From Chloroflexota bacterium (GTDB lineage: Bacteria; Chloroflexota; Anaerolineae; Promineifilales; Promineifilaceae): a stretch of 8,321 bases of DNA. The stretch lies in the NCBI GenBank assembly GCA_020353135.1, contig CP070688.1, positions 915,179 through 923,499 of the forward strand, given 5' to 3'. Positions 270 to 8,321 of this stretch are shown here, one piece after another. The position numbers were made by a program, and so were the translations under genes. Within the stretch, counting starts at the first letter, position 1. Every line of letters begins with the position of its first letter. The notes beneath the pieces are model-generated. The model was given only the letters and a program-made list of their open reading frames with translations, made no database searches and was not told where the DNA came from.

Positions 270-1334
270 ATGGAACGTTCTTCAACCGCAAAGCGTCTTC
301 AATTCTGGATCGGCATGGTCGTCAGCATTGCCTGCCTGGCGGCCGTGTTTATCTTTGTAAGACCGGCCGACATCGTAGAGGCGCTTGGAAACACACGTTA
401 TGAACTATGGCTGCTAGCGGCCGTTTCACTCATCGCGTTCCTGGCCCTACGCGCCGTGCGTTGGCGTTTCATGCTCAATAGCGGCCTTGGGCCGGCGAGG
501 CGCGTTCCATATGGCAAGGTCTTCAATATCCAAAACATTGGCTATATGCTGACCAATATACTGCCCTTTCGCCTTGGAGATGTGGCTCGGGCCGTGCTGA
601 TCGGCAATGTGCCTTCACTGTCGATCTCACGAGGCCTTTCGACCATGGTGGCTGAACGTGTCTTCGACCTGGCCTTCATCGTGATTCTCTTTCCGTTCAC
701 CCTATCAGGGGTTCCTGAGGTCCCACCGGCGGTTATTGCCATTGTTCGCGTTGCCGGTGCGGGTGTGCTGGTGGCCATGGTTGTCCTGGTCGGTGCGGCC
801 AATCAGCGAGAACAGGCCGGTCGGCTGACAAACGCATTTCTCCGACGTATCCCTCGCATCGACGCCCAGGCATGGTCCAGGCGCTTCGAAGACCTGCTGC
901 TCGGTCTCGACTCGCTCACGCGTTTCACGGACGCTGTTGTGCTCTTGCTCTTGAGCATCGTCATTTGGGTACCCATAGTCGCCGGCTACTACCTCGGTCT
1001 AAGGGCGGTCAACCTGGATGTCACCCTACAACAAGCCACATTTGTCGTCTGTATCGCCGCTTTCAGCGTGACGGCGCCATCGTCGCCCGGTCAGGTTGGC
1101 GTATTTGAGGCCAGTGTAACCTTTGCCATTGCCGGTATATTGGGACTACCAGACGCGGAAGCCGCGTCCTTTGCCGTGCTCTATCACGTGGTGAACTATT
1201 TGGTTCTGGGCGTACTTGGCATCATTGCTATCAGCCGGACCGGCGAGACATTCTCCAATGTCGTCGCTTCGGCCAGGTCGCTCGTCAGATCTGAAGCCGT
1301 GGCAGCCGACTCTAACATGAAACAAGGTTCATAG
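270..1334 (+). CDS. UPF0104 / LPG-synthase-TM family flippase-like integral membrane protein
   Basis: This 354-residue polytopic protein has about eight hydrophobic segments (roughly 12-31, 46-62, 131-147, 155-176, 222-243, 254-268, 280-292 and 299-320). It shows the landmarks of the LPG_synthase_TM / UPF0104 family: P99-F-R-L-G-D104 followed by R107, the E129-R130 pair before a membrane helix, and SSPGQVGVFE ending at E280. The related membrane half of MprF moves lysyl-phosphatidylglycerol, and stand-alone members are often annotated as flippase-like; most have no proven substrate. There is no C-terminal aminoacyl-transferase domain, so it is not a full MprF. The length is normal for the stand-alone class. 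The ATG at 270 lies 11 bases after a TATAAT and has no Shine-Dalgarno. The next methionine, M16, would cut into the first membrane segment. The glycosyltransferase follows 13 bases after the stop, implying one transcript. Moving or handling a lipid carrier in surface glycan synthesis is inference from context. Confidence 0.85.
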   Translation: MERSSTAKRLQFWIGMVVSIACLAAVFIFVRPADIVEALGNTRYELWLLAAVSLIAFLALRAVRWRFMLNSGLGPARRVPYGKVFNIQNIGYMLTNILPFRLGDVARAVLIGNVPSLSISRGLSTMVAERVFDLAFIVILFPFTLSGVPEVPPAVIAIVRVAGAGVLVAMVVLVGAANQREQAGRLTNAFLRRIPRIDAQAWSRRFEDLLLGLDSLTRFTDAVVLLLLSIVIWVPIVAGYYLGLRAVNLDVTLQQATFVVCIAAFSVTAPSSPGQVGVFEASVTFAIAGILGLPDAEAASFAVLYHVVNYLVLGVLGIIAISRTGETFSNVVASARSLVRSEAVAADSNMKQGS

Positions 1335-1347
1335 TCGCAGAGAACCG

Positions 1348-2559
1348 ATGAAGATCCTAGAAGTCTTGACCTACTACCGGCCGCACATAAGCGGCTTGAC
1401 AATCTACGTAGAAAGATTGAGCAAGGCCTTGGCGAAACAAGGCCATCAAGTCACGGTTTTCACTTCCCAGTATGACAAGTCGCTGCCGTCCCATGAAGTG
1501 AAAGACGGTGTGAGGATTCGCCGCGTCCCGGTAATCATGCGCGTGAGCAAGGGCGTGATCATGCCCCGATTTGGACCTTTGGCCTGGGGCATGGTCGCAG
1601 GCGCTGACGTGGTCCATCTTCACCTTCCCCAGTTCGACGCGCCAGGCGTCGCCTTCCGCGGCCGGCTCTATGGAAAGCCCGTTGTGCTTACATACCATTC
1701 GGATCTAGAGTTGCCGGGCGGCGCATTGAACCGGGTGATAAACGGGACTGTACATACGATGAACCGGGCCGCCGGTACACTGGCCGACGCAGTGGTCACT
1801 TACACGCGTGATTTCGGAACGCACTCCCCGTTTTTGTCCCGCTATCTAGGTAAAAAACTACATGTCATCCCGCCGCCCGTTGAACTCGCCCCGGTGTCCG
1901 AAGTTGAGATCGATTCTTTTCGCCGCGAGCATCAACTTAACGGCAAGCACGTCATCGGCATCTCGGCTCGACTTGCCGCCGAAAAGGGGATCGAGGTCTT
2001 GTTAGAAGCGCTGCCGAGGATACTTTCGAGTCACCCCAACGCTCACGTCTTACACGCCAGCCCCGATGCGATCGGTGAGGGCGCCTATGTCGAACATTTG
2101 CGACCTCTGCTAAGGAGGTACGAGGCAAGCTACCATCTACTTGGTGCACTGCATGGCTCAACTCTGACCTCCTTCTATCGTAACCTTGACTGCCTGGTCA
2201 TGTGTAGCCTGAATAATACCGAAACCTTCGGCCTGGTTCAGGTGGAAGCCATGATGAATGGCGTGCCCGTCGTCGCCACAGATTTGCCAGGAGTAAGGCA
2301 GCCAGCTCGAATGACTGGAATGGGCGAGATCGTGCCGGTTGGCGATGCGGCCGCCTTGGCAGAAGCCATAGTACGGATTTTGGACAACAAGCAGAAGTAC
2401 ATTCGGTCGGCCAAGACCATCGCCGCCTCTTTCGACCCGGCCGGAACGGCGGCCGAGTATATTCGTCTCTTCAACGATCTTCGCCAGGGCAAAAAAGTAG
2501 ACACACTTCCCGAGCCCGCCGCATACGGTCAGCTCCGCCAACTCAGGGATAGTCTTTAG
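1348..2559 (+). CDS. GT4-type (GT-B fold) glycosyltransferase
   Basis: This 403-residue protein shows both halves of a GT-B retaining glycosyltransferase of family GT4. The N-terminal acceptor domain (about 1-190) starts MKILEVLTYYRPHISGLTIY, with the glycine-containing loop typical of Glyco_transf_4 domains, and carries VVHLHLP near 88-94. The C-terminal donor domain (about 200-385) has ISARLAAEKG with R208 and K213, which in the family contact the donor phosphates. It also has the E-X7-E motif E292-TFGLVQV-E300 and PVVATDLPG near 308-315. No signal peptide or clear membrane helix is present, so it should work in the cytosol or at the inner membrane face, moving a sugar from a nucleotide donor to an acceptor, plausibly lipid-linked. 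The sequence does not identify the sugar or acceptor. It follows the flippase-like gene by 13 bases; CAGAGAACC upstream is at best a weak ribosome-binding site. Confidence 0.92.
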   Translation: MKILEVLTYYRPHISGLTIYVERLSKALAKQGHQVTVFTSQYDKSLPSHEVKDGVRIRRVPVIMRVSKGVIMPRFGPLAWGMVAGADVVHLHLPQFDAPGVAFRGRLYGKPVVLTYHSDLELPGGALNRVINGTVHTMNRAAGTLADAVVTYTRDFGTHSPFLSRYLGKKLHVIPPPVELAPVSEVEIDSFRREHQLNGKHVIGISARLAAEKGIEVLLEALPRILSSHPNAHVLHASPDAIGEGAYVEHLRPLLRRYEASYHLLGALHGSTLTSFYRNLDCLVMCSLNNTETFGLVQVEAMMNGVPVVATDLPGVRQPARMTGMGEIVPVGDAAALAEAIVRILDNKQKYIRSAKTIAASFDPAGTAAEYIRLFNDLRQGKKVDTLPEPAAYGQLRQLRDSL

Positions 2560-2601: not shown

Positions 2602-3480
2602 ATGTCCGAAAAAAGCCCTTCTCATCGAGTTGGTCCAAACGGGGATGACTTGCTTTGGCGCCACCTCAAGAGCGTCCCCGCCTTTCGAGCATTGCTGCGT
2701 TCGGTCGAAGCACGTTTCTACCGCCAAACCGATTTACCCCGGCCGATTCTCGATCTGGGCTGCGGGGATGGTCACTTTGCTGCCCTGACTTTCAATGAAC
2801 AGCTCACGGCCGGCATCGATCCCTGGTCGGGTCCACTACGGAAGGCCCATGGCGCCAACGTTTATCGCTTGGTTGTCAACGGATTAGGGGACGAACTGCC
2901 TTTTCCCGACGGCTATTTCGGCAGCATCATTAGCAATTCGGTCTTGGAACATATCCCGGATATCCAGCCCGTCCTGAACGACATGGCCCGGGTTCTCCGA
3001 CCAGGAGGTAAAGTAGTCGTCACAATGCCCAGCGACAGATTCTCGGACTGGTTAGGCGGCGCCTTATGGCTCGAAAGGCTGAAGCTGAGCGGGATGGCCG
3101 GCCGCTACCGCCGGCTGTTCAATCGCATTGCCCGCCACGCTCACACGGATGGACCGGAGTTATGGGCGCACCGATTTACCGACGCAGGCCTTGAAGTCGA
3201 GCGCTGGCACTACTATTTCTCCAAACGCTCGCTTCACGCCTTGGAGATCGGGCATTTCTACGGCATGCCTTCATTGATACTGCATTTCTTTTCCGGCCGC
3301 TGGATCATAGCGCCCTGGCGAAGCAACCTGTATTTCACCGAAAAATGGCTTCGCCCACTCTACAGCGAGCCTGCCCCGGCCGTAGGTTCGATGCTGTTTT
3401 TTGAGGCTCACAAGCCCTATGCTAGTAATGCGACCGGGAAGAGCCATACAATTCCGTCATCATCGGTCGATGCGAGTTGA
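2602..3480 (+). CDS. Class I SAM-dependent methyltransferase (Methyltransf_11 type)
   Basis: This 292-residue protein has the Rossmann-like methyltransferase core at about residues 46-145. Motif I is ILDLGCGDGHFA (D51-G57), which binds the methionine part of SAM. An acidic residue in AGIDPW (D73) fits the ribose contact. LPFPDGYFGSIISNSVLEHI (99-118) and VLRPGGKVVVTMP (131-143) complete the UbiE-like pattern. The C-terminal part (about 150-275) is rich in aromatic residues and contains FYGMPSLILHFF (219-230), possibly an acceptor or membrane-contact region. Family members methylate very diverse small molecules; in a glycosyltransferase cluster, O-methylation of a sugar or modification of a lipid-linked glycan is the likeliest role, but this is inference. 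The start is the first ATG after the glycosyltransferase stop in the same frame. It has no Shine-Dalgarno, so initiation may depend on translation of the upstream gene. Confidence 0.88.
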   Translation: MSEKSPSHRVGPNGDDLLWRHLKSVPAFRALLRSVEARFYRQTDLPRPILDLGCGDGHFAALTFNEQLTAGIDPWSGPLRKAHGANVYRLVVNGLGDELPFPDGYFGSIISNSVLEHIPDIQPVLNDMARVLRPGGKVVVTMPSDRFSDWLGGALWLERLKLSGMAGRYRRLFNRIARHAHTDGPELWAHRFTDAGLEVERWHYYFSKRSLHALEIGHFYGMPSLILHFFSGRWIIAPWRSNLYFTEKWLRPLYSEPAPAVGSMLFFEAHKPYASNATGKSHTIPSSSVDAS

Positions 3481-3634: not shown

Positions 3635-6600
3635 ATGGAGGAAACGAGGAACGAGCAAGGTGGCGCAACGGCGCCCCCCGCCGACGCAGGCGTCGCTTCC
3701 ACTGGCGACCCGCCTGGCCGGCCGATTGGCAACTGGCTGCCGTCGTGGCCTGTTCTGGCGACCGTCGGACTACTGCTCATCTTGCTTCTGGGCGCTTATT
3801 TTCGCTTCACAGGCCTAGATTGGGACGATACCTATCATCTGCATCCTGACGAACGGTTCTTGACCGATACGGCCTCTCTTCTGAAAGTCACGGATCCGAT
3901 AACCTACTTCAAGACCTCTGAATCTCCGCTAAATCCGCATAACGTCGGCAAGACATTCTACGTTTACGGAAACTTCCCGATGACGGCCACGCGTCTTGTT
4001 GCCGAGGGCGTCGATAGCCTCTGCCTCAACGCCGGCACGATTTGTGATGCTCGCTTCATATTCTTCGACGGTCTTCAACTGGTCGGCCGCTTTCTGTCGG
4101 CGCTTCTCGATCTCGTGGCTATCGTCATTGTCTACCTGATCGGCCAGCGACTTTACGACTGGCGAGCTGGTTTGATCGGCGCCCTACTTATGGCCGCGGC
4201 CGTTCTTCCAATCCAGCAATCCCACTTCTTCACCATGGACAATTGGGCGGCCGCCTTCACGACCATCGCCATGTATGCCGCGGTGCGGGCCGGCGACAGT
4301 GGCCGCCAGATGAGATGGTGGATTCTCTTCGGCCTGGCTCTGGGTCTAACGGTGTCGTCACGCATCAATCTGGCTCCGTTGGCCGCTATGGCAGGAGTTG
4401 CAGCTCTTGTCTGGCTGATTCGCTGCGCGACTTCGGCGGGTGAGCGCCTCGGATGGCGCTACATGATCAGCGCCAACGGTTCTCGTCATGTCACCCAGGT
4501 TGTCGTTGGCCTTCTGCTGGCCGCAGTCATTTCCGCCGTTGTTTTCAGGCTTGCCCAACCCTATGCTTTCGCCGATAGTCAGATCGTTCGGGAGACGTTG
4601 ACAGCCAACACTGGTAAGCCTCCCGGGCAGCTGGAGACCCTCGTTGGTTCCATTGCCGGATTCAATCCGTTGTGGCAGGCTAACCTTCGCGAGATCCAGA
4701 TAATGCAAAGTCCAGAGGCGGTCTTCCCGCCTGCCTTACAGTGGACCGACAGGACGCCTATTCTCTTTCCCTTCACCAACATGGTTCTTTGGGGTATGGG
4801 ACTCACCGCTGGGCTGGCGGGTTGGCTGGCCTTTTCCTGGGCTCTATATCGAATCGTACGCGCGCGACCTGGCTGGCTGAATCACGTCCTGCTCGTCTCC
4901 TGGGTAGGACTCTATTTCGTTTTCATGGCCACACGGTGGGTGAAGTCGATTCGCTACTTCCTGCCTATTTACCCGTTCCTCTTCTTACTCGCTGGTTGGG
5001 CGCTGATTGAATTATGGAACCGGTCCGGCCCCAGCCGGCTGAAGCGAGTCGCAACAGGCGTTCTAATAATGCTGGTGATCATTCCCACGATATTGTGGGC
5101 CAATTCCTTCGTCGACATATATCGCCGGCCGGTTACCAGAGTCCAAGCTTCCGAGTGGATATTCGACAACGTTCCGACCGGAGCAACGCTGCTTTATGAG
5201 AGCGATGGCACAGATAAGGAATTGCATCTGCCGCTCAGGCATTTTGAACTCTATGATCAGAGCATGCCGCTGACGTTGTTCTTTGAAATGCCAGTTAACG
5301 GAAAGGTCACCGGTCTGCGCTTCAATTACGCCTCCGATCCGGACGCGCATCTGGTTCAGGACGAGGGCGAGCAACTGCGGATAGAGTTGATCGACCCGAT
5401 GACAGCTGAGCTGTTGAGCGAGACGTCGATCGGTGTCGACGAACCGCTGAACCTTGATAATCAGGATCAAGAGGTGCTGACTGAATTCGACTCGGTTCCT
5501 GTGAAGGCTGGTCAGCGATACTTGCTGATCGCCGAGACCACCGGGGCCGCTCCCATCAGGTTTGGCACCAGTCAGATGGCCAATGAACACTGGGACGACG
5601 CTCTGCCGATCCGCCTAGAGGGTCGAGATCCGTATGGTTTCTACTATCAGGGTATGTCCGAAGGTCTTATCCCTATCACGCACCCGGACAGCGAAACCAA
5701 GCGCGCCAGTTTCTACCGCTGGCTTGAGGAAGCCGAGTACATCGTCCTTAGCAGTCAAAGGGCCTTGTGGTCGATTCCACGCCTGCCGCTCACCTATCCC
5801 CTTACTAATCGTTACTACGAGGCTCTCTTCAACGGCGAACTGGGCTTCGAACTTGTCGAGCAATTCCATGCCGATCTCAACATCGGACCACTTTACATAA
5901 GTGACACGACAGGCCAGTTCGGTTGGGGCCGGCCGCCAGAAGTTAGCTGGCCGCCACCCGGAGATTTGGCAGCTGAGGAGGCCTTCAGCGTCTACGACCA
6001 TCCTCCGGTGTGGATTTTCGCCAAGACGGAAGAGTATAGTCCGGATAAGGTCAGGCGGGTTCTTGGCAACGTCGACCTGAGCAATGTCGTGGCCATGACC
6101 CCGGGCGAGGCGTCGCTGGCTGGCAGCGGCCTGATGCTCGAAAGTAGCGCACTGCAACTGCAGCGGGACAATGGCAGTTTCAATCAACTGTTCAATTTAG
6201 ACGGCCTGCTGGCGGATCAACCGTGGCTCGCCGCAGCCGTTTGGTGGCTGACGGTCGTTATCTTGGGCTGGCTGGCTTTTCCAATAGCCTTTGTTGCCCT
6301 GCCCGGGTTGCCGGACAGAGGCTATCCCCTGGCTAAAATCCTGGCTCTCCTGCTTATCTCCTATTTCACCTGGCTCATGGGCAGCGTGCGCCTGCTGCCC
6401 AATGACCTGGTCACATTGCTTATTGGTCTAGGTCTTATGGCCGTGGCCGGGCTGGGCCTGCTTATCGCTCACCGCAGAAGCGTCGCGTTATTCGTTCGCA
6501 GTAACATCCAACTGATTCTTGCGGTGGAATTGGTCTCTCTGGCCCTATTCCTGGTTTTCATCATCGTCCGCCTGGGCAACCCCGACGTTTGGGACGTCAT

Positions 6601-8321
6601 CTGGGGCGGTGAGAAGCCAATGGATCTCGCCTATTTCAACGCCGTGCTTAAGAGCACAGTTTTCCCTCCTTACGATCCTTGGTACGCCGGAGGCTACATT
6701 AACTATTACTACTATGGATTTGTCTACATTGGCGCGATCACGAAACTCCTCGGATTGGTTCCAACAGTAGCCTATAACCTTGCCCTGCCGATGTTGGCCA
6801 GTTTCACCGGCATTGGCGCCTTCAGCGTAGCCTATAATCTTGTGGCCTCGCGCCATATCCGGCTGCGAAGTCGAAACTTGGATACTACGGCCGGTGACTG
6901 GTCCAGCGGCGCTCTTATAGCAAAAGCCGCCGCAGCCGGGCTAGTTGCCGCGGTCCTGGTGGTTCTCCTGGGTAACCTGGCCGAAATCACTGTTTTGGTT
7001 CGCGCCTCATACCTGGCCGGTAGTCAGGACTTGCTCCATTCGGGCGTTGCCGCGCTAGACAATGCCGTCCGGGCGTTGGATGGAGCCATCAATATCGTCA
7101 TAGGCGACGTGGCCGTCCCAGTCTCGACGGGCGACTGGTTCTGGTCGGCGACTCGGGCAATCAACTTCGAGCCCGGCGAAGCCCAGCCGATCAACGAGTT
7201 CCCATTCTTCACTTTCCTTTACGCCGACTTGCATGCTCACATGATTGCCTTGCCGCTGACGTTGCTGGCCCTGGCCTGGGCGATATCCTTGGTTCTGCCC
7301 GGCGGCCGCTACGAGAGGTTCGGTTTCCTGACGATTGGCCAATGGCTGATTGGCGGTCTGGCCATCGGCGTCCTTCGGGCGACGAATACCTGGGACTTCC
7401 CGACCTACCTGTTAATTGGCATGATTGCCGTCGCCTTCAGTGTCTACCAGGTCCGTGGCCGGCTTACCTGGAACACGGTCGCCGAGGCAGGTCTGCAGGC
7501 TCTGCTCTTGGCCGCCGTATCGATCTTGCTCTTCTGGCCTTTCGCCGAAAGTTACAAGGTTCCCTACAATTCATTCTCGCTCTGGCCTGGCTCCTATACG
7601 GGATTAGGCAACTACTTGTTGATCTATGGGCTCTTTCTTTTCATTATCGTGACTTACGTGATAATTGAACTTCGGGCCTGGACGAGAAACCAGGCGGACC
7701 AGGGTAATTCTCGCCTGAAGCGCTTGATACCGCTGCTGGCCCTGGCGCTTGTCGCCTACGCCGCCATACTTGTTCTTCTGCTATACAGAGGCTACTGGAT
7801 CGCGCCCGTTGCTCTTAGCCTGGCCTTGATCGCCGGATTGCTCTGCTTGCGTATCGGAATGCCGGTCGAACGCCGCATTGTCTTGATCCTGATCGCTCTC
7901 GCGCTGAGCCTGACCTTACTGGTGGAATTCATCGTCCTGGACGGCGATATCGGCCGAATGAATACGGTTTTTAAATTCTATGTACAGGTCTGGGTACTGC
8001 TCAGCGTCACTTCGGCCGTTGCCCTTATCTGGTCCTGGCCTATCCTATCGACCAAAGTGAATCTGCGCCTGGCCTGGAGCCTCGCGCTCATCGCTCTGGT
8101 CAGCCTGGCAGCCCTTTACCCGCTTCTGGCGACTAAGGCCAAGTGGGACACTCGCATGAGCTCGAGAGCGCCGTACACTCTGGACGGCATGGCCTTCATG
8201 GAAACTACGAGTTATGCTGACCGCGCCTACGACGGCCGCCCTCAAATCGTGTCCCTGGCCTCCGACTACAATGCCATCCGCTGGATGCAGCGCAACATTG
8301 AAGGCTCGCCGGTCATTGCCG
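3635..8321 (+). CDS. Giant GT39-like / DUF2298 (Chlor_Arch_YYY) fusion membrane protein, 3' end outside window
   Basis: The frame is open for 1562 codons to the window edge without a stop. A proline/alanine/glycine-rich tail (about 1-36) precedes a GT-C-like module (about 40-490) with roughly eleven hydrophobic segments. That module has HPDERF at 70-75 in the first external loop, where GT39-type enzymes carry catalytic acidic residues, plus SRINLAP (241-247) and RYFLPIYPF (440-448). A largely soluble, probably extracytoplasmic region spans about 491-862, with ASEWIFDNVP, NEHWDDALP (650-658) and VYDHPPV (786-792). From about 864 the DUF2298 module follows: EKPMD (993-997), PPYDPW (1011-1016), INYYYYG (1022-1028, the family's YYYxG), YADLHAH (1196-1202), TNTWDFP (1250-1256) and GRMNTVFKFY (1440-1449). 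IRWMQRNIEGSPVI just before the edge resembles the soluble tail that follows in this family. The start is forced: an in-frame TAA at 3626 leaves the ATG at 3635 as the only normal start before the first membrane helix, with no Shine-Dalgarno before it. Outer-face transfer from a lipid-linked sugar is family-based inference for the N-terminal half. I know of no established function for DUF2298. Confidence 0.9.
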   Translation, partial: MEETRNEQGGATAPPADAGVASTGDPPGRPIGNWLPSWPVLATVGLLLILLLGAYFRFTGLDWDDTYHLHPDERFLTDTASLLKVTDPITYFKTSESPLNPHNVGKTFYVYGNFPMTATRLVAEGVDSLCLNAGTICDARFIFFDGLQLVGRFLSALLDLVAIVIVYLIGQRLYDWRAGLIGALLMAAAVLPIQQSHFFTMDNWAAAFTTIAMYAAVRAGDSGRQMRWWILFGLALGLTVSSRINLAPLAAMAGVAALVWLIRCATSAGERLGWRYMISANGSRHVTQVVVGLLLAAVISAVVFRLAQPYAFADSQIVRETLTANTGKPPGQLETLVGSIAGFNPLWQANLREIQIMQSPEAVFPPALQWTDRTPILFPFTNMVLWGMGLTAGLAGWLAFSWALYRIVRARPGWLNHVLLVSWVGLYFVFMATRWVKSIRYFLPIYPFLFLLAGWALIELWNRSGPSRLKRVATGVLIMLVIIPTILWANSFVDIYRRPVTRVQASEWIFDNVPTGATLLYESDGTDKELHLPLRHFELYDQSMPLTLFFEMPVNGKVTGLRFNYASDPDAHLVQDEGEQLRIELIDPMTAELLSETSIGVDEPLNLDNQDQEVLTEFDSVPVKAGQRYLLIAETTGAAPIRFGTSQMANEHWDDALPIRLEGRDPYGFYYQGMSEGLIPITHPDSETKRASFYRWLEEAEYIVLSSQRALWSIPRLPLTYPLTNRYYEALFNGELGFELVEQFHADLNIGPLYISDTTGQFGWGRPPEVSWPPPGDLAAEEAFSVYDHPPVWIFAKTEEYSPDKVRRVLGNVDLSNVVAMTPGEASLAGSGLMLESSALQLQRDNGSFNQLFNLDGLLADQPWLAAAVWWLTVVILGWLAFPIAFVALPGLPDRGYPLAKILALLLISYFTWLMGSVRLLPNDLVTLLIGLGLMAVAGLGLLIAHRRSVALFVRSNIQLILAVELVSLALFLVFIIVRLGNPDVWDVIWGGEKPMDLAYFNAVLKSTVFPPYDPWYAGGYINYYYYGFVYIGAITKLLGLVPTVAYNLALPMLASFTGIGAFSVAYNLVASRHIRLRSRNLDTTAGDWSSGALIAKAAAAGLVAAVLVVLLGNLAEITVLVRASYLAGSQDLLHSGVAALDNAVRALDGAINIVIGDVAVPVSTGDWFWSATRAINFEPGEAQPINEFPFFTFLYADLHAHMIALPLTLLALAWAISLVLPGGRYERFGFLTIGQWLIGGLAIGVLRATNTWDFPTYLLIGMIAVAFSVYQVRGRLTWNTVAEAGLQALLLAAVSILLFWPFAESYKVPYNSFSLWPGSYTGLGNYLLIYGLFLFIIVTYVIIELRAWTRNQADQGNSRLKRLIPLLALALVAYAAILVLLLYRGYWIAPVALSLALIAGLLCLRIGMPVERRIVLILIALALSLTLLVEFIVLDGDIGRMNTVFKFYVQVWVLLSVTSAVALIWSWPILSTKVNLRLAWSLALIALVSLAALYPLLATKAKWDTRMSSRAPYTLDGMAFMETTSYADRAYDGRPQIVSLASDYNAIRWMQRNIEGSPVIA
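3662..3694 (+). repeat. Two consecutive GC-rich inverted repeats just inside the giant gene
   Basis: GGCGC-AACG-GCGCC (3662-3675) is a perfect 5-base stem with a 4-base loop, and GACGC-AG-GCGTC (3683-3694) is a second perfect inverted repeat. They begin 27 and 48 bases after the ATG at 3635, inside codons for the flexible N-terminal tail. They could fold in the mRNA and affect early translation. GC-rich alanine/proline codons also favour such structures by chance. Confidence 0.35.

Follow-up and report, generated by a model that had tools for sequence, protein, structure and literature searches.

The window analysed here is a stretch of 8,321 nucleotides from a Chloroflexota bacterium (GenBank assembly GCA_020353135.1, contig CP070688.1, positions 915,179 to 923,499), and its subject is a long gene that joins an N-terminal glycosyltransferase of the GT-C fold class to a C-terminal membrane module of the DUF2298 family. 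According to the listing of open reading frames (ORFs) the gene is a single open frame of 1562 codons that starts with ATG and shows no stop up to the window end, in agreement with the unbroken frame of at least 1562 codons given in a preliminary description of this DNA. The frame is incomplete, since it runs off the window end and the listed relatives mostly have 1622-1735 amino acids (aa). Its features are:

3635..8320, +, probable double GT-C fusion protein of at least 1562 aa (ORF listing, Pfam/TIGRFAM and homologue searches; 3' end beyond the window)
3746..5125, +, first GT-C transmembrane core, residues 38-497
3842..3853, +, HPDE, acidic loop after the first transmembrane helix (TM1) of the first module, residues 70-73; H70, P71, D72 and E73 each in 95/95 aligned rows
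4073..4417, +, PF13231 PMT_2 match, residues 147-261, 1.2e-12
4952..4978, +, RYFLPIYPF in the last-but-one long helix (439-463) of the first module, residues 440-448; R440 in 101/101 rows
5126..6196, +, non-membrane alpha/beta domain closing the first module, residues 498-854; secondary structure from AlphaFold2 (AF2), beta-rich insert at about 537-651
6200..6478, +, extra helices leading into the second module, residues 856-948; AF2 model of the C-half
6353..8002, +, PF10060 DUF2298 match, residues 907-1456, 1.3e-116
6479..8320, +, probable second GT-C module, the DUF2298 core, residues 949-1562
6611..6625, +, EKPMD, predicted acidic loop after TM1 of the second module, residues 993-997; E993 in 183/183 rows
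6701..6718, +, NYYYYG, the YYYxG motif of the family, residues 1023-1028; Y1024 in 185/186 rows
7196..7240, +, EFPFFTFLYADLHAH, near-invariant acid/histidine cluster, residues 1188-1202; E1188 182/182, D1198 174/182, H1200 181/182, H1202 182/182
7955..7981, +, RMNTVFKFY of the second module, residues 1441-1449, paired with RYFLPIYPF by hhalign; R1441, N1443, F1446 and K1447 each 178/178

Both halves were searched with profile hidden Markov models, and all four families proposed for them matched. In the Pfam scan PF13231 reaches 48.8 bits in the N-half (curated cut-off 26.1), and PF02366 (PMT) matches at 1.1e-6 when this half is scanned alone; together with the HPDE and RYFLPIYPF landmarks this bears out its GT39-like character. 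The C-half, already assigned to DUF2298 from its YYYxG motif, is a clear member of DUF2298/Chlor_Arch_YYY, with 390.9 bits against PF10060 (cut-off 27.8) and 417.6 bits against TIGR03662 (1.2e-124, residues 864-1561, cut-off 300.25). The descriptions of these two models give no function, whereas the C-half is read here as a probable GT-C module in a fused or tandem setting; the notes of TIGR03662 mention a class with extra N-terminal sequence. No Rfam match was found.

The membrane core of the N-half has the GT-C fold in the predicted structure and in structural superposition; the refuting outcome named in the preliminary description, an N-half outside GT-C, did not occur. With PMT_2/GT39-like enzymes it shares the family match, the fold, the acidic loop after TM1 and a C-terminal alpha/beta domain, but it differs from them by the probable second GT-C module fused to it. 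Judged from the GT-C fold, the alpha/beta domain (residues 498-854) should lie on the extracytoplasmic side. The AF2 model of the DUF2298 half, superposed with VIA-align, is GT-C as well, with structures of STT3 as the top structural matches; the call comes from VIA-align, and families missing from its list may still match. Three extra helices (9-34, 46-63 and 71-91 in the numbering of the C-half model) precede the region that is superposed on most GT-C structures. Since the predicted fold of DUF2298 is GT-C, the whole chain is probably a tandem of two GT-C modules. The preliminary description was right about a GT39-like GT-C enzyme fused to DUF2298 in a gene setting that points to glycan synthesis, but its view of DUF2298 as a different kind of membrane module probably gives way to this tandem.

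Several results weigh against a GT-C assignment of DUF2298. Foldseek searches with its model returned no row at E<=0.001. The profile of the N-terminal GT-C module (N-GT) aligned with that of standalone DUF2298 proteins at only 0.012, and DUF2298 aligned weakly with a neighbouring PMT_2 family of 728 aa (0.024 and 0.019). Moreover, an unrelated control pair (standalone DUF2298 and a histidine-kinase cluster) scored 1.2e-5 over 175 columns, better than the real pair, and therefore sequence profiles are not relied on. The direct hhalign comparison of the two halves gave E 1.7e-5 (probability 78.5, 100 columns), with RYFLPIYPF paired with RMNTVFKFYVQVW, and with rebuilt profiles N-GT and fused DUF2298 aligned at 1.7e-4 over 274 columns and fused DUF2298 and an Agl23-like family at 1.3e-4, the 20 reversed decoys ranging from 0.0099 to 0.35. 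Such profile evidence between the halves is only suggestive; it is the predicted fold that carries the GT-C claim for DUF2298. Searches of PDB sequences returned nothing at E<=1 for the single N-half sequence and weak rows for its profile (Pmt1, 0.0024; ArnT, 0.031), while DUF2298 found chance rows only as a single sequence (best 0.049, a potassium channel) and two unrelated rows as a profile (best 0.35). The Foldseek result, the weak profiles and the control that outscored the real pair would all suit a general similarity of helical bundles, with DUF2298 as a membrane helper of the N-half that is unrelated to GT-C; given the superposition described above we hold this to be very improbable.

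Conserved residues were determined by profile-aligning 210 rows of DUF2298 domains; some rows are partial, and the short loci L081-L107 were left out. Besides the near-invariant residues in the feature list, N1251 (182/182) and D1254 (178/182) belong to this set. The invariant E993 lies between helices 104-127 and 140-152 of the AF2 C-half model, which puts it in the loop that follows the first helix of the core, and judged from the aligned ranges only it may be equivalent to the catalytic acid of GT-C enzymes. The conservation pattern is as expected of an active site. A further alignment (A2) took 55 of the 65 C-halves from complete fusions, and 40 of the 52 standalone genes that are complete.

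The occurrence of the fusion was surveyed in two ways. With a DUF2298 alignment as query, a profile scan in which each species was represented by one genome yielded at least 558 confirmed stretches, the best 80 of which were retained as loci; all 80 are from Chloroflexota records. According to profiles built in this analysis N-GT and DUF2298 are in one ORF in 73 of them. In five more, DUF2298 is joined to the domain that follows N-GT and the contig is cut at the 5' edge, and of the remaining two one is cut further (L014) and one has a broken frame (L068). Complete fusion ORFs have 1484-2002 aa (median 1706, n=65). When the whole chain was used as query, 3743 of the 7996 proteins scored were homologues at E<=1e-10. 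All 120 homologues listed contain PF10060 and 109 of them also PF13231, and 117 have 1622-1735 aa (the others 1562, the window's own frame, 1413 and 1419). In the second survey 104 of 151 drawn Chloroflexota genomes gave a DUF2298 match (102 over the cut-off) and 47 none. The 150 rows listed for frame sizes represent 86 of the 104 positive genomes, 75 of which have frames of fused size (1250 aa or more); in 14 genomes a frame reaches 2300 aa or more. Among 20 fused-size frames picked by hand rather than at random, four of them for frames of at least 2300 aa, 19 have N-GT fused to DUF2298 and one, cut at its 5' end, the domain that follows N-GT. The survey of Chloroflexota that had been proposed with the initial description thus identifies the fusion as the usual state in the loci examined.

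An assembly error or an overlooked stop codon as the source of the fusion is ruled out by the 73 loci with both parts in one ORF, next to the five cut ones and the 109 listed homologues with both Pfam domains; the broken frame of L068 would speak for it. In L068:7512-12427 the fusion frame is split over three ORFs, by decay or by assembly error.

The two modules occur in further arrangements. Seven genomes (L130-L136), chosen for an unfused N-GT near DUF2298 and thus not random, encode N-GT (602-621 aa) and DUF2298 (793-857 aa) in two adjacent genes that share the strand and keep the order of the fusion; an Agl23-like gene follows the pair in four of the seven regions, within the stretch covered. 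Among the matches listed, homologues of the split N-GT are from Ktedonobacteraceae or Thermogemmatispora wherever the organism is named. One of them, P0255 (992 aa), has both domains on one protein. A strict link between the modules is contradicted by four genomes (G007, G019, G025 and G028) with an unfused N-GT away from DUF2298, and by G031, which has a close standalone N-GT (C74:164673-166580, a frame of 695 aa) and no DUF2298 match in the genome.

At the other extreme, N-GT and two DUF2298 domains form one chain of 2333-2645 aa in four of the 20 chosen frames:

L118:3780-11714, L124:6992-13990, L125:8390-16252 and L126:6066-13775, -, probable triple GT-C frames (N-GT and two DUF2298)

The first DUF2298 of the chain in L124 is a weak partial match only, and the partly covered frames of L096-L099 have the same order as the triple chains. 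The chain of L118 ends in tetratricopeptide (TPR) repeats.

A standalone DUF2298 gene lies downstream of the fusion in 56 of the 70 loci with at least 1 kb there and is missing in 14; in seven cases the two genes overlap by four bases. Of the 55 survey genomes listed with both kinds, 34 have the standalone gene within 6 kb downstream, and in 21 it is not there or is on another contig. The window ends before the position of this gene. In L011:7475-20185 two tandem fusion genes (1641 and 1685 aa) are followed by a standalone DUF2298 gene.

A tree of DUF2298 domains, built by a quick method, took in the window's own domain and the small groups in full, together with 32 rows out of the other 89 fused domains and 32 out of the 71 standalone ones. 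It places 32 of 33 fused domains and three first domains of triples in a group of 37 (support 99), in which the two standalone rows are from contigs cut at the 5' end. In a second group 29 of 32 standalone domains are found (support 96). The second domains of triples form a group of four with that of L124 (support 99), and all seven split domains are in one group (support 99). Outside their own groups are the standalone row of L126 and the fused domain of L108.

The possible role of such multiplied modules can be discussed by comparison with STT3/AglB. As STT3 heads the structural matches of the DUF2298 model, DUF2298 could be a GT-C-fold oligosaccharyl or polysaccharide transferase that moves a lipid-linked glycan completed by the N-half en bloc to a protein or another acceptor. 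However, the several paralogues of DUF2298 per genome and per chain suit several sugar-adding steps better than several ligases, and STT3 gave no Pfam match at E<=1 in the whole fusion protein. TIGR04154 matches the N-half only (17 bits, cut-off 450), and no STT3 family matches the DUF2298 half. The STT3 motif WWDYG is absent from the protein sequence of the window. We therefore consider a ligase unlikely. The mycobacterial arabinosyltransferases EmbA/B/C, AftA, AftB and AftD have, as far as known, one GT-C module per chain, and none of them was matched in the PDB sequence searches with DUF2298. To our knowledge a chain of several GT-C modules is an unusual design among membrane glycosyltransferases.

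Upstream of the fusion and on the same strand there are three genes, whose Pfam and TIGRFAM matches confirm the adjoining flippase-like, GT4 and methyltransferase genes named in the preliminary description:

270..1334, +, LPG_synthase_TM/TIGR00374 flippase-like membrane protein, 354 aa (PF03706 2.6e-45, TIGR00374 6e-29)
1348..2559, +, GT4 glycosyltransferase, 403 aa (PF00534 5.2e-25, PF13439 1.3e-20)
2602..3480, +, S-adenosylmethionine (SAM)-dependent methyltransferase, 292 aa (PF08241 1.7e-16)

This gene order is conserved. Within 6 kb upstream of the fusion, homologues of the flippase-like gene are found in 27, of GT4 in 41 and of the methyltransferase in 38 of the 56 loci that extend 5 kb or more in this direction. 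A protein cluster of about 728 aa (representative PMT_2; the neighbour clusters are named from one representative each) is present in 47 loci, mostly directly upstream of the fusion, and is not in the window. Equally in 47 loci a gene for about 580 aa is located typically 2.6 kb downstream. For its representative the match to TIGR03663 (flippase activity-associated protein Agl23) is 2.7e-14 and 53 bits, below the cut-off of 126. Of the 48 loci that extend 6 kb or more downstream, 44 have a match to the Agl23-like profile within this distance. The fusion protein of the window differs from this neighbour by having no TIGR03663 match at E<=1. By profile the Agl23-like family is PMT_2-like (2.1e-8 against N-GT), and the member in the split-type genome L132 (L132:8192-10603) has Pfam matches to PMT and PMT_2. 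In these proteins (L067:15001-16743, L132:8192-10603) a flippase family name thus stands on a GT-C-like, PMT/PMT_2-like protein. In archaea the LPG_synthase_TM-type family arCOG00899 is reported beside PMT/STT3-like and AglD-like genes (PMC5898192), and a table for Chloroflexi bacterium 44-23 has DUF2298 and PMT2 genes in one neighbourhood (PMC8756737).

The Agl23-like neighbour also provides a precedent for DUF2298 as a GT-C-fold protein that no longer transfers sugar and instead flips or presents a lipid-linked sugar for the N-half and its neighbours. Agl23 of Haloarcula hispanica is described as a putative hexose-P-dolichol flippase that suppresses yeast rft1, and in liposomes the purified archaeal protein is reported to move lipid-linked glycan across (PMC11182771). 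Together with the PMT/PMT_2-like matches of the Agl23-like family, this makes a GT-C-like protein with reported flippase activity the precedent. Against this, the conservation of polar residues in DUF2298 resembles that of an enzyme and the cluster already has other flippase candidates, which makes a purely transporting DUF2298 quite unlikely.

We moderately favour that the tandem GT-C modules each add a sugar borne by polyprenyl phosphate to the same glycan outside the membrane in successive steps. DUF2298 would then be catalytic. Each module would take one sugar from its polyprenyl-phosphate carrier at the outer side of the membrane, and both would extend the same growing lipid-linked or surface glycan, so that two successive steps would be tied in one chain and the product would be a surface glycan. 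In the cytoplasm, initiation and modification of the glycan would fall to GT4 and the methyltransferase; passage of lipid-linked sugars across the membrane would be assisted by LPG_synthase_TM-type and Agl23-like proteins, and the second DUF2298 protein of relatives would add a further sugar. More tentatively, Chloroflexota might possess a glycan assembly line, in which GT-C modules joined in a single chain, two in this protein and three in relatives, and neighbouring single GT-C genes would build a fixed oligosaccharide stepwise outside the membrane without release, the DUF2298 paralogues being a large GT-C family with each member adding one specified sugar.

The domain names and their co-occurrence are already annotated in databases. 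A literature search that did not cover subscription papers found no paper on the function of DUF2298. As far as these searches go, and Pfam clan placement aside, the new points are the assignment of DUF2298 to GT-C, the chains with two and three GT-C modules, the split and fused pairs and the extended cluster. If DUF2298 is GT-C, a large family gains a testable reaction in glycan building outside the membrane. The gene cluster is a candidate machinery for the outer layers of Chloroflexota or for archaellum glycosylation. Chloroflexota are reported to be without lipopolysaccharide genes and the identity of the outer layers of one cultured member is called unclear (PMC13319060), and the archaellum of the same member may be O-glycosylated according to a further article (PMC12488501).

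Outside Chloroflexota DUF2298 was found in two of 14 control genomes, both archaeal (Haloferax volcanii and Methanosarcina acetivorans). A plasmid search gave two records only, an archaeal one (L128) and one from Lachnospiraceae (L129). The archaeal gene is truncated by the end of its record, before E993, and keeps 10 of the 11 covered residues with D1254 replaced by S. The Lachnospiraceae homologue keeps all twelve conserved DUF2298 residues and differs at less conserved motif positions, e.g., P995, P1012, P1015, F1189 and W1453. It is encoded at L129:5917-8169 on a plasmid of Pseudobutyrivibrio xylanivorans (Bacillota), near genes for an O-antigen ligase, a GT2 and a sugar epimerase.
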